Below, one piece after another: positions 37,495-39,896 of a DNA stretch of 64,000 nucleotides (its first letter is position 1; each line of letters opens with the position of its first letter). Origin of the DNA: Paraburkholderia agricolaris (GTDB lineage Bacteria > Pseudomonadota > Gammaproteobacteria > Burkholderiales > Burkholderiaceae); NCBI RefSeq assembly GCF_009455635.1, contig NZ_QPER01000002.1:124001-188000 (forward strand), read 5' to 3'. A program made the position numbers and the translations under genes. Under the pieces are notes generated by a model. That model was not told the DNA's origin and ran no database searches. It saw only the letters and a list, made by a program, of their open reading frames with translations.

Positions 37495-38444
37495 TGCGCG
37501 TGGGCAATGACGGTAAGCGCAGTGTTTTATACGCATGCTCCGGTGTGCTGGTTCTGAGCGCGGACACCTTGCTCGTTCGTCTGGTTGGGCCCGTGGATCC
37601 GCTTCAGATTGCCTTCTGGCGCGGCGTGCTCATGTTCGCCGCCAGCGTGGCGGCATGTAGTTGTTTTGCTCGCGGCAAAACCCTGCTGGCGAACTCCATC
37701 AAGCAACGCCTGTTCTGGATGGCGTCGCTTTGCTATGGGACCGCTTCGCTATTCTTTGTGTACGCGCTGCGTCTTACCGACGCTGCAAGTGTGCTGTTCA
37801 TCATCTCCGCTGCGCCGTTGTTTGCGACGCTGCTTTCCCGTGTGGTGTTGAACGAACGGACGCCCGCGGCGACGTGGCTGGCGATGCTGGTCGCGCTCGG
37901 CGGCATCGGCCTGGTTCAGCATGGCAGCATCAATGCGGTGCAAACTTCGGGCAATGCGATGGCGCTGGCGAGCGCATTGGCGATGAGCGCCGCCTTTGTC
38001 GTATCCCGCAAGAGCGCGGCAAACATGGCGCTGGCGCCTGCCGCCGGCGGCCTGTTGAGCGCATGCGCGGTTTTACCGTTGCTCGATCGCGTGGGGTTTG
38101 TTGAAGCATCGCAATGGCACTACATGGGTATTGAAGCCGCTGTGGTGGTACCGATCGCGTTCGGTCTGATCGGATGGAGTACGCGCTTTCTGGCCGCGCC
38201 TCAGCTTAGCCTGATCCTGTTGCTCGAAACCGTGCTCGGTCCGGTATGGATCTGGCTGGTCCTGGGCGAACGTCCTTCGGCGTTCTGCCTGATCGGCGGC
38301 GCGGTTGTCCTGAGCGCACTGGCATTTAACATCTCAATGTTGGCCTCGCGCTCGAGCCTTGCGCCGCGGCGCCGTCGCGCCGGCGGAGATACATCGCATG
38401 GTGTAGCGATTCAGGCGGGTGGCGCCCGCCAGGATTGCGATTGA
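37494..38444 (+). CDS. EamA-type DMT transporter
   Basis: A 316-residue inner-membrane protein with ten predicted transmembrane segments in two EamA repeats (about 10-135 and 150-280). The internal VVLNERTPAATWLAMLVALGGI and VLGERPSAFCLIGGAVVLS motifs end each repeat. The C-terminal 35 residues are a basic cytoplasmic tail. It is coupled to the preceding gene by TGATG. EamA proteins usually export amino acids or small metabolites, which here may be the product of the PRTase/GuaA-like pathway. Confidence 0.87.
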   Translation: MRVGNDGKRSVLYACSGVLVLSADTLLVRLVGPVDPLQIAFWRGVLMFAASVAACSCFARGKTLLANSIKQRLFWMASLCYGTASLFFVYALRLTDAASVLFIISAAPLFATLLSRVVLNERTPAATWLAMLVALGGIGLVQHGSINAVQTSGNAMALASALAMSAAFVVSRKSAANMALAPAAGGLLSACAVLPLLDRVGFVEASQWHYMGIEAAVVVPIAFGLIGWSTRFLAAPQLSLILLLETVLGPVWIWLVLGERPSAFCLIGGAVVLSALAFNISMLASRSSLAPRRRRAGGDTSHGVAIQAGGARQDCD

Positions 38445-38476
38445 CGTCCCCCCACAAAATCGTTTACTGTCGATCC

Positions 38477-38563
38477 ATGGACTTCCACTCGATTCCCTTC
38501 GCTGCTGTCACCACCACGACGACCACCTTTACAGGCGGGTCGTCTGGAGGTTGCGCACGCTAG
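38477..38563 (+). CDS. Threonine-rich leader peptide
   Basis: A 28-codon frame starting ATG at 38477 and ending TAG at 38561-38563. It reads MDFHSIPFAAV, then six consecutive threonines (residues 12-17, codons ACC ACC ACG ACG ACC ACC), Phe, a seventh Thr (19), then GGSSGGCAR. The Thr run lies over one arm of a hairpin, and a strong terminator stem follows before the ThrRS-like gene. This is the layout of amino-acid-responsive attenuator leaders such as thrL and leuL. Too short for ordinary ORF calling. Confidence 0.8.
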   Translation: MDFHSIPFAAVTTTTTTFTGGSSGGCAR

Positions 38564-38629
38564 AAGCAGGAAGCTGTGGCAAACCACCAAAGGCCCCGCC
38601 GGAAACGGACGGGGCCTTTGGCGTTTCTT
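38514..38629 (+). promoter_or_regulatory. Threonine attenuator: 1:2, 2:3 and 3:4 pairings
   Basis: Region 1 (CCACGACGACC, 38514-38524) lies over the Thr codons and pairs with region 2 (GGTCGTCTGG, 38538-38547) with one bulged base. Region 2 (GGCGGG, 38534-38539) can instead pair with region 3 (CCCGCC, 38595-38600), blocking the terminator. The terminator 3:4 has 12-bp perfect arms CCAAAGGCCCCG (38587-38598) and CGGGGCCTTTGG (38610-38621), followed by CGTTTCTT. A ribosome stalled at Thr codons would free region 2 and allow readthrough; normal translation would terminate. Confidence 0.75.
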
Positions 38630-38690
38630 GACCTCCGTTTGCGGTACCGATCTGCAGTAACTGCAACATCAAACCCAATGGAGCGTCATC

Positions 38691-39896
38691 ATGAACGACA
38701 TCGACCATCGTGTGCTCGGCAACAAACTCGACCTCTTCCATCAGCAGGAAGAGGGCGCCGGCATGGTTTTCTGGCACCCGCGCGGCTGGGAGCTATACCG
38801 CGTGCTGGAAGACTACATTCGCGCCCGCATGCGGCGCGCGGGCTTTCGCGAGATCCGTACGCCGCAATTGCTGGCGCGCTCGTTGTGGGAAAAAAGCGGC
38901 CATTGGGAGAAGTTCGGCGCGGCGATGTATTCGCTCGCCGACGCGGAAGAAGGGCGCGCGCTGTGTCTGAAGCCGATGAGTTGTCCGTGTCACGTGCAGG
39001 TGTTCAATCAGCGCGTGCGCTCGTATCGCGAGTTGCCGGTTCGTTACAGCGAGTTCGGCGCGTGTCATCGTGACGAACCTTCGGGCTCGCTCGAAGGCCT
39101 CAAGCGTACGCGTGCATTCGTGCAGGACGACGCCCATGTGTTCTGCACGGAGGCGCATATCGAAGCCGAAGTCGGCCGCTTCTGTGCGCTTTTGCGTGCG
39201 GTTTATGCGGACCTTGGTTTCCCCGCCTTCAAAGTCGCGCTAGCCACGCGGCCCGCGATGCGGGCGGGCAACGATCAAACGTGGGATCGCGCGGAAGAGG
39301 CGCTCGCCAATGCGGCGCGTGCAGCGGGCCTCGAATTCGACGTGCTCGAAGGAGAGGGTGCATTTTACGGCCCGAAACTGGAGTTTCATCTGACGGACAG
39401 CCGTGAACGCAGCTGGCAATGCGGCACGATTCAGCTCGATTTCGTGCTGCCCGAACGACTCGACGCGGAGTTCGTCAATGAGCGCAACGAACGTGAGCGG
39501 CCGGTGATGATTCATCACGCGGTACTCGGCAGCATGGAGCGTTTTATCGCGATGCTGCTCGAACATCATGAAGGATGGCTGCCGGTATGGCTCGCGCCGG
39601 AACAGGTCGTGGTCGCGACGATCAGCGACGCGAATGCGGCCTACGCGCAAGAAGTGATGCAAGCGCTTGAAGACGCCGGCATCCGGGCGCTGCTCGATGG
39701 CCGGCCGGAGCGGCTCGAAAAGAAGATCGTCGACGCACGTGAAAAGCAGGTGCCGATTTTTGTCGCGGTCGGTTCGCGCGACGAGCGCGACCGGACGATC
39801 AGCATTCGCATGCGTGATGGGCAGCAGTCGACGCTTGCGCTCGCGGACGGTATCGAGCGTTTGCGGCTGGCTGCGCTGCCGCCCGCCACGCGCTGA
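38691..39896 (+). CDS. Short threonyl-tRNA-synthetase-like protein without editing domains
   Basis: A 401-residue class II synthetase-like protein, versus about 640 for ThrRS. It lacks the N-terminal TGS and editing (N2) domains and begins directly at the catalytic core (HHRVLGNKLDLF-like start). Zinc ligands Cys98 (KPMSCPCH), His149 (QDDAHVF) and His275 (PVMIHHAVLGS) are present, as are motif 2 (VRYSEFGACHRDEPSG, Arg118) and motif 3 (LGSMERFIAML). The C-terminal anticodon domain is retained but diverged (DGRPERLEKKI where E. coli has a DLRNEKIGFKI-type loop). It is preceded by a Thr attenuator. It may be a spare ThrRS, a resistance copy or a Thr-activating enzyme. Confidence 0.85.
   Translation: MNDIDHRVLGNKLDLFHQQEEGAGMVFWHPRGWELYRVLEDYIRARMRRAGFREIRTPQLLARSLWEKSGHWEKFGAAMYSLADAEEGRALCLKPMSCPCHVQVFNQRVRSYRELPVRYSEFGACHRDEPSGSLEGLKRTRAFVQDDAHVFCTEAHIEAEVGRFCALLRAVYADLGFPAFKVALATRPAMRAGNDQTWDRAEEALANAARAAGLEFDVLEGEGAFYGPKLEFHLTDSRERSWQCGTIQLDFVLPERLDAEFVNERNERERPVMIHHAVLGSMERFIAMLLEHHEGWLPVWLAPEQVVVATISDANAAYAQEVMQALEDAGIRALLDGRPERLEKKIVDAREKQVPIFVAVGSRDERDRTISIRMRDGQQSTLALADGIERLRLAALPPATR

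Follow-up and report, generated by a model that had tools for sequence, protein, structure and literature searches.

Expression of threonyl-tRNA synthetase (ThrRS) is controlled in Escherichia coli by translational autoregulation through an operator and in Firmicutes by a T-box. Bacillus subtilis, whose second ThrRS gene was reportedly the subject of a 1992 paper by Putzer, has in thrZ a spare ThrRS under T-box control that is switched on when tRNA-Thr is uncharged. An auxiliary, antibiotic-resistant TrpRS is said to be under ribosome-mediated attenuation, going by the title of a 2010 paper of Vecchione and Sello. Classical attenuators are reported before Streptomyces trpS2 and leuS and before gammaproteobacterial pheST (PMC1262725), and a His leader peptide is predicted before the hisS and hisZ paralogues of bacilli (PMC2965389). 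An earlier reading of the DNA studied here, made from its letters (the sequence-only reading), had taken a ribosome-mediated Thr attenuator on a synthetase-like gene in a betaproteobacterium to be undescribed as far as known; the first of these sources shows that synthetase genes as such can have attenuators. Two further systems bear on the present one. Transcription of Sinorhizobium meliloti rnTrpL begins at the AUG of trpL (PMC7298713), and Anabaena ThrRS T2 is an inducible second ThrRS with weak proofreading and a degenerate editing domain that is induced by low zinc (PMC4787780, PMC9437257).

We analyzed a stretch of Paraburkholderia agricolaris DNA of 64,000 nucleotides, the whole of which is called the window, in which a threonine-rich leader open reading frame (ORF) precedes a ThrRS gene (Table 1). 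Very likely, the arrangement is a transcription attenuator of the ribosome-mediated, leaderless type, through which the level of charged tRNA-Thr governs an auxiliary ThrRS.

Table 1. Features of the leader region and the ThrRS2 gene, in positions of the window
Feature	Position	Strand	Description and basis
Probable sigma-70 promoter	38441..38470	+	-35 TTGACG 38441-38446; sequence reading
-10 candidate TTTACT	38463-38468	+	ends 8 nt before leader ATG; best-scoring
-10 candidate TACTGT	38465-38470	+	ends 6 nt before leader ATG
Leader ORF	38477..38563	+	28 codons, probably leaderless; ATG 38477-38479, stop TAG 38561-38563; Thr codons 38510-38527 and 38531-38533 = strand 1; direct reading
1:2 hairpin (ends approximate)	38510..38548	+	Thr codons pair with GGGTCGTCTGG; fold and covariation
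2:3 antiterminator	38534..38600	+	GGCGGG 38534-38539 with CCCGCC 38595-38600
3:4 terminator hairpin	38587..38621	+	12-bp stem plus CCG/CGG, one bulged A; fold
SD-hiding hairpin	38630..38687	+	CTCC 38633-38636 with GGAG 38680-38683 and flanks; fold
ThrRS2, auxiliary threonyl-tRNA synthetase	38691..39896	+	401 aa; catalytic core and anticodon-binding domain only

The auxiliary ThrRS gene and its leader

The product of the gene downstream of the leader matched NCBIfam TIGR00418 at 461.5 bits (cut-off, 383.65). Its Pfam domains are tRNA-synt_2b and HGTP_anticodon, with neither TGS nor tRNA_SAD (editing). Residues 5-391 can be superimposed in an alignment on residues 2-387 of 1evk, the 401-residue E. 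coli core, and the zinc and catalytic residues are presumably kept. Since the same genome also has a full-length ThrRS, which is 52% identical to the short protein over the core, the latter (ThrRS2) is an auxiliary copy. The ThrRS-like gene of the sequence-only reading is a ThrRS by TIGR00418 but not the housekeeping enzyme; identity as housekeeping thrS was ruled out by the separate full-length gene and by the missing TGS and editing domains.

ThrRS2 is patchily distributed, being found in 29 of 87 genomes of the same genus, a count that includes the P. agricolaris genome itself and one 5′-incomplete copy. Two copies in same-genus genomes looked broken (L026, with its 5′ part missing, and L191, which ends early) and were left unmended. 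A wider contig scan, from which the best 80 loci of at least 578 relatives were kept, placed the short form among the kept loci in Paraburkholderia, Burkholderia, Acidocella, Inquilinus, Bradyrhizobium, Azospirillaceae, and one unplaced alphaproteobacterium; the remainder of these 80 were mostly full-length ThrRS. In a tree, the 53 short cores included grouped in a single clade (SH-aLRT, 100), separate from the 26 other cores. Acidocella was nested in the betaproteobacterial part of the short clade, with supports of 91 to 97, which suggests that ThrRS2 has been transferred horizontally.

Direct reading confirmed the 28-codon leader that had been proposed, with its run of six Thr codons and a seventh just beyond; the predicted peptide is MDFHSIPFAAVTTTTTTFTGGSSGGCAR. 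Among 559 ORFs of 15 to 45 codons in the 64-kb window, the leader is one of 3 with at least five Thr in some 8 codons. Conservation of the run in relatives, set as a test by the sequence-only reading, was borne out. All 56 ThrRS2 leaders compared, whose translation is predicted, contain at least three Thr codons. In 39 of them, at least six fall within 8 codons, while 15 have at most four in any 8 codons, most Bradyrhizobium leaders being among these. Thr makes up 22.8% of the residues over the 56 leaders, none of which has three or more Lys and 41 of which have no Lys at all. The Thr blocks differ synonymously (ACC/ACG/ACA/ACT), and a single codon string for the block is common to 23 of the 56. 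One locus that carries the element (L007) was omitted from the 56 because its open frame is long. In another, also outside the 56 (L204), a one-base difference shifts the frame of the Thr leader, and the ORF continues beyond the usual stop.

The sequence-only reading had further set a usable ribosome site before the leader as a test. No such site was found before the P. agricolaris leader or in most relatives: an anti-Shine-Dalgarno match of -4 kcal/mol or better precedes 53 of the 56 ThrRS2 starts but just 5 of the 56 leaders. What was found instead is a -35 element at a near-fixed distance. The motif TTGAC lies 35 to 39 nt upstream of the leader ATG in 54 of 56 loci and within 60 nt upstream of the ThrRS2 start in 1 of 56. 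This spacing leaves room for a -10 element ending a few nucleotides before the ATG. It would place the transcription start at or near the ATG, and a leaderless start is likely for that reason. The -10 element is weak in P. agricolaris, where a generic consensus scan of the region for promoters and terminators made no call, and the search for -10 elements was confined to gaps of 2 to 9 nt, so that the spread of gaps is not itself evidence. Judged from the usual lack of a ribosome site and from the promoter spacing, the leader ORF is probably translated from a leaderless transcript.

Alternative pairings and their conservation

The fold check that had been called for favored the proposed structure. 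Positions 38470 to 38640 folded at -75.7 kcal/mol, compared with a shuffle mean of -55 (z, -5.10; 0 of 200 shuffles as good), and both the 1:2 and the 3:4 hairpins were seen. Direct reading also found the 2:3 strands and the terminator stem where they had been claimed. In the fold and in the alignment, the sensor Thr codons are located in strand 1 of the 1:2 hairpin. Strand 3 is common to the 2:3 and 3:4 pairings, so these are mutually exclusive.

Covariation was assessed in 78 element hits (76 distinct), 70 before ThrRS2 genes and 8 before other genes, which were fitted to a covariance model, so that the alignment leans towards the modeled structure. For 1:2 and 3:4 together, 92.1% were paired versus 86.2% in shuffles (0 of 500 as high), and 9 of 20 pairs showed changes on both sides versus 6.5 in shuffles (6 of 500 as high). 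Further pair types were not above chance (21 versus 21.5; 378 of 500 as high). The 1:2 core helix was 86.6% paired in the 76 distinct sequences, with 4 of 6 pairs changed on both sides. For the 3:4 helix, the values were 94.5% and 5 of 14, which makes the terminator stem the most strongly conserved portion of the element. In the 2:3 pairing, 97.4% of cells were paired versus 97.1% in shuffles, which come out almost as paired because the strands hardly vary. A single compensatory change was seen (L060, GGTGGG/CCCACC instead of GGCGGG/CCCGCC), and shifting the pairing by 1 to 3 columns dropped it to 32 to 64%. The expectation that the alternative pairings covary was thus upheld for 1:2 and 3:4, while 2:3 proved near-invariant, with compensation in one sequence.

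To follow the element across genomes, a covariance model (R1) was built from 28 sequences. R1 matched 48 of 50 short-ThrRS loci, with a lowest score of 73.7 bits; the 28 sequences are among these 48, and four of the 48 are repeat fetches of DNA already counted. The two misses were L026, the copy without its 5′ part, and L097, at a contig edge. None of 61 other, mostly full-length ThrRS loci had the element (best score, 16.5 bits). The layout is kept well beyond P. agricolaris and is not confined to Burkholderiales, being present also in Alphaproteobacteria (Bradyrhizobium, Inquilinus, Acidocella, and others). An EamA gene ends at 38444, just upstream of the leader, and the structure could in principle be that gene's ordinary terminator beside a random Thr-rich ORF. 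Presence of the element in 48 of 50 ThrRS2 loci, together with the covarying pairs, refutes this explanation, to which we give practically no credence.

Membership in a known RNA family was also rejected. An Rfam search of the 64-kb window gave no family at gathering, T-box included, nor was any found at gathering in 17 related loci. The best of six subthreshold matches in the window was Thr_leader (RF00506), which scored 20 bits (cut-off, 55; E, 0.16), hardly more than the 19.7 bits of the next.

In the favored attenuator reading, RNA polymerase would start at or near the leader AUG, and a ribosome would load directly and follow it. With ample Thr-tRNA, the ribosome would clear the Thr codons; either the 1:2 pairing or the ribosome would then occupy strand 2, and the 3:4 terminator would form and end transcription. 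With scarce Thr-tRNA, the ribosome would stall on the Thr codons and cover strand 1; GGCGGG would then pair with CCCGCC, 3:4 would be blocked, and ThrRS2 would be transcribed. In this scheme, we infer that the ribosome stalls, that polymerase reads through, where exactly transcription starts, and that ThrRS2 is induced. Folding energy in the window was -81.1 kcal/mol unforced and -66.2 kcal/mol with 2:3 forced; because the unforced fold is the lower in energy, the switch must be kinetic. Also weighing against the attenuator reading are the weak -10 element and the poor T tract in P. agricolaris, the 43 of 78 element hits whose T runs do not exceed 3, the leaders with at most four Thr in any 8 codons, the codon string common to 23 leaders, the near-invariance of the 2:3 strands, the unremarkable number of pair types, and the shifted frame in L204.

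The leader might also work through its products, the short terminated transcript or the peptide acting in trans and the attenuator being secondary, as for Sinorhizobium peTrpL/rnTrpL. The probable leaderless layout resembles that of rnTrpL (PMC7298713), and the peptide tail is conserved, with GG in 54 of 56 ThrRS2 leaders and a final Arg in 49. The GGSSGG codons of this tail, however, are strand 2 of the RNA, and its conservation is therefore explicable by RNA pairing. We consider action in trans quite improbable.

A further hairpin is predicted to hide the Shine-Dalgarno (SD) sequence of ThrRS2. It was surveyed in 78 loci, comprising 56 ThrRS2 loci and 22 others; the latter are the used part of 24 non-ThrRS2 loci hand-picked from hits with a readable leader and gene, a set in which no gene could be located for L129, nor a terminator end for L162 and L177. 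A GGAG SD was present in 60 of the 78 (18 were without it), and these contained exactly one CTCC in 47 cases, several in 3, and none in 10. The CTCC/GGAG flanks paired at 3.5 of 6 positions with their own partner versus 2.92 when permuted (0 of 5,000 as high; 47 loci scored, 40 distinct, with kinship retained). When each locus was shuffled separately, the hairpin was weakly supported in many loci but unsupported in most ThrRS2 loci of Bradyrhizobium, a group in which most such loci lack the GGAG/CTCC pair. The support for the hairpin comes from the CTCC count and the flank permutation. By folding, the SD is fully paired in the P. agricolaris window.

These findings bear on whether the leader acts mainly on translation, with the position of the ribosome opening the SD hairpin and 3:4 serving as a minor terminator or a pause. 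Besides the covarying SD flanks, this explanation has on its side a mean SD pairing of 0.87 in 44 loci and a poor T tract: that after the P. agricolaris terminator stem is CGTTTCTTG, and the T runs in the 3′ part of the hit reach only 3 in 43 of 78 element hits. Yet runs of at least 5 occur in 24 of the 78, no part of the element is better conserved than the terminator stem, and the 2:3 pairing hardly frees the SD. When 2:3 was forced in 44 of 57 given loci (those with all needed motifs), mean SD pairing went from 0.87 to 0.83, falling by more than 0.1 in 9 of the 44 and rising in 2. Since the SD stays paired in most loci with 2:3 forced, release of the SD by strand 4 pairing with the anti-SD strand was likewise not supported. 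A mainly translational mode is in our judgment unlikely; under transcription attenuation, the SD hairpin may be a second, translational brake on ThrRS2. What the computation shows is that the ORF with its run of Thr codons, all three pairings, and the SD hairpin are conserved and that they are linked to ThrRS2.

Related leaders before other genes

R1 matches of about 37 to 68 bits were obtained in Alphaproteobacteria, where the same layout with other codons precedes asd, DapA-like, and DUF1127 genes. Hits with an E value of 0.001 or better occurred in 121 of 299 genomes of the P. agricolaris family, in 60 of 248 of the family of genome G149, and in 44 of 337 of the class of genome G147; the weakest of them are likely chance. 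Family membership was checked for a single asd gene (L156), a single DapA-like gene (L145, which fell just short of the cut-off for dapA), and a pair of DUF1127 genes (L128 and L162), and the rest were assigned by sight. Thr-, Lys-, and Met-rich leaders stand before asd-like genes at L156, L159, L163, L165, L166, L176, and L178, all in Alphaproteobacteria. In these seven leaders, Thr accounts for 25%, Lys for 10.6%, and Met for 8.9%, and Lys stands beside Thr in 7 of 7. Such codons are in line with a gene common to Lys, Thr, and Met synthesis. The sensor codons thus follow the downstream gene (Lys and Thr for asd versus Thr for ThrRS2), which counts in favor of the attenuator reading. The four dapA-like leaders have some Lys and no clear run.

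DUF1127-like small genes (L128, L130, L132 to L135, L137 to L140, L142, and L143, in the family of G149, and L162 and L173) are preceded by the same terminator and by leaders of which MIKCSRKLNRNHMTRFGWAVGGVVR is an example; the codons of these leaders reveal no obvious sensed signal. In the P. agricolaris genome itself, the layout recurs before a redoxin-family gene (L182; C2:2021598-2021736, minus strand), which by sight sits after a cysS-looking gene and whose leader, MRNFTSTAITIHRHAQAHSAWSSGACTR, is without a codon run. It recurs as well before a DUF2917 gene (L181; C2:1206295-1206421, minus strand), with the leader MLTHTSIPVAIKNRTMHAIIGRHLGARAR.

In the P. agricolaris family, the Thr leader also precedes genes other than ThrRS2, namely, an MFS gene (L121, L206, and L207), an isochorismatase-family hydrolase gene (L210 to L213), and, in genome G750, a second full-length ThrRS gene, whose product groups with full-length enzymes and not with ThrRS2. 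Families were tested for two MFS genes, one hydrolase gene, and the G750 ThrRS, and L196 (contig edge, out of register) was unused. The best named relatives of the MFS protein are efflux pumps, far below cut-off. Its first codons resemble the first 20 of ThrRS2, as if the gene had replaced ThrRS2 in place. The Thr leader before the G750 gene is an association separate from that with ThrRS2 and also counts for the attenuator.

These layouts raise the possibility of one leaderless scaffold used as a modular cassette across Alpha- and Betaproteobacteria. It would consist of a near-fixed promoter-AUG distance, a GG-rich tail serving as strand 2, a terminator of the form GGCCCCGCCGG..CGGACGGGGCC that hardly varies, and an SD hairpin, and only the sensor codons would be swapped per gene: ThrRS2 would have Thr codons, asd would have Thr, Lys, and Met codons, and dapA-like genes would have some Lys codons. 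The Thr version would sound an alarm when ThrRS fails and switch on one of several exchangeable rescue genes, coding for a spare ThrRS that does not edit, a resistant ThrRS like ObaO, a transporter, or a hydrolase. We advance this proposal tentatively and would sooner doubt than assert it, if only by a little.

The same switch could also have as its natural signal not Thr hunger but a housekeeping ThrRS poisoned by a natural product (e.g., obafluorin or borrelidin), which would make it an inducible defense. According to PMC11252418, the change G463S makes E. coli ThrRS obafluorin resistant and lowers its inhibition by borrelidin, L489M alone gives no obafluorin resistance, and ObaO is marked by Ser at Gly463 and Met at Leu489. 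The second ThrRS of G750 has both ObaO changes, Ser at the Gly463 position and Met at Leu489, the latter judged by its place in the motif. Both this gene and the company of the MFS and hydrolase genes under the Thr leader favor a defense, as does the patchiness of ThrRS2 within the genus. However, Gly463 is kept in 52 of 53 ThrRS2 proteins (one was unmatched by the pattern), so these are not of the ObaO type and lack the known resistance change; at the same residue, 26 other ThrRS cores have 25 Gly and one Ala. An exact-motif search of 398 genomes, which motif variants would escape, found one further Ser463 ThrRS (G808), which is without the element, so that the attenuator stands at one of two such genes. 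Nor did an ORF listing of the 16 kb around the G750 gene contain a very long NRPS-like ORF. Defense as the natural role is possible, with the balance clearly on the side of doubt.

Comparison with known systems

If the attenuator reading is true, it adds a further mode of ThrRS control beside the E. coli operator and the Firmicute T-box, and it explains how a spare synthetase without proofreading can stay unexpressed as long as it is not required. A modular scaffold would make many unannotated leader ORFs of Alpha- and Betaproteobacteria readable, their codons naming the amino acid and suggesting what the downstream gene does. Should ThrRS inhibitors prove to be what the Thr version responds to, it could point the way to resistance genes and the compounds driving them.

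The enteric thr operon attenuator (RF00506, thrL) likewise has Thr codons in a short leader, alternative hairpins, and an intrinsic terminator. The present element differs from it in preceding a synthetase paralogue rather than thrABC, in its probable leaderless start, and in its additional SD hairpin, and it scores far below the RF00506 cut-off. The T-box of B. subtilis thrZ reads tRNA directly and has no leader ORF, whereas a leader ORF is present here. The pheST attenuator serves a housekeeping enzyme and has Phe codons; it resembles the present case as a classical attenuator on a proteobacterial synthetase gene (PMC1262725).

Streptomyces trpRS1/trpS2, going by the title of Vecchione and Sello, is also a ribosome-mediated attenuator of an auxiliary, antibiotic-resistant synthetase, with Trp codons in Actinobacteria there and Thr codons in Proteobacteria here. 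The predicted leader of bacilli hisS/hisZ likewise has a codon run on a duplicated synthetase-type gene, with His codons and in Firmicutes. In S. meliloti trpL (PMC7298713), the transcript begins at the leader AUG and the gene is one of Trp biosynthesis. Anabaena T2 keeps a degenerate editing domain and is induced by low zinc, whereas ThrRS2 has no editing domain. The literature searched, with most subscription journals beyond the search, showed no Thr attenuator of a ThrRS gene. Attenuators of synthetase genes are already known as a kind, and the Thr/ThrRS case is a variant of these; within the literature searched, the combination of a probably leaderless Thr attenuator bearing an SD hairpin, a spare ThrRS without an editing domain, and a wider scaffold family appears to be new.
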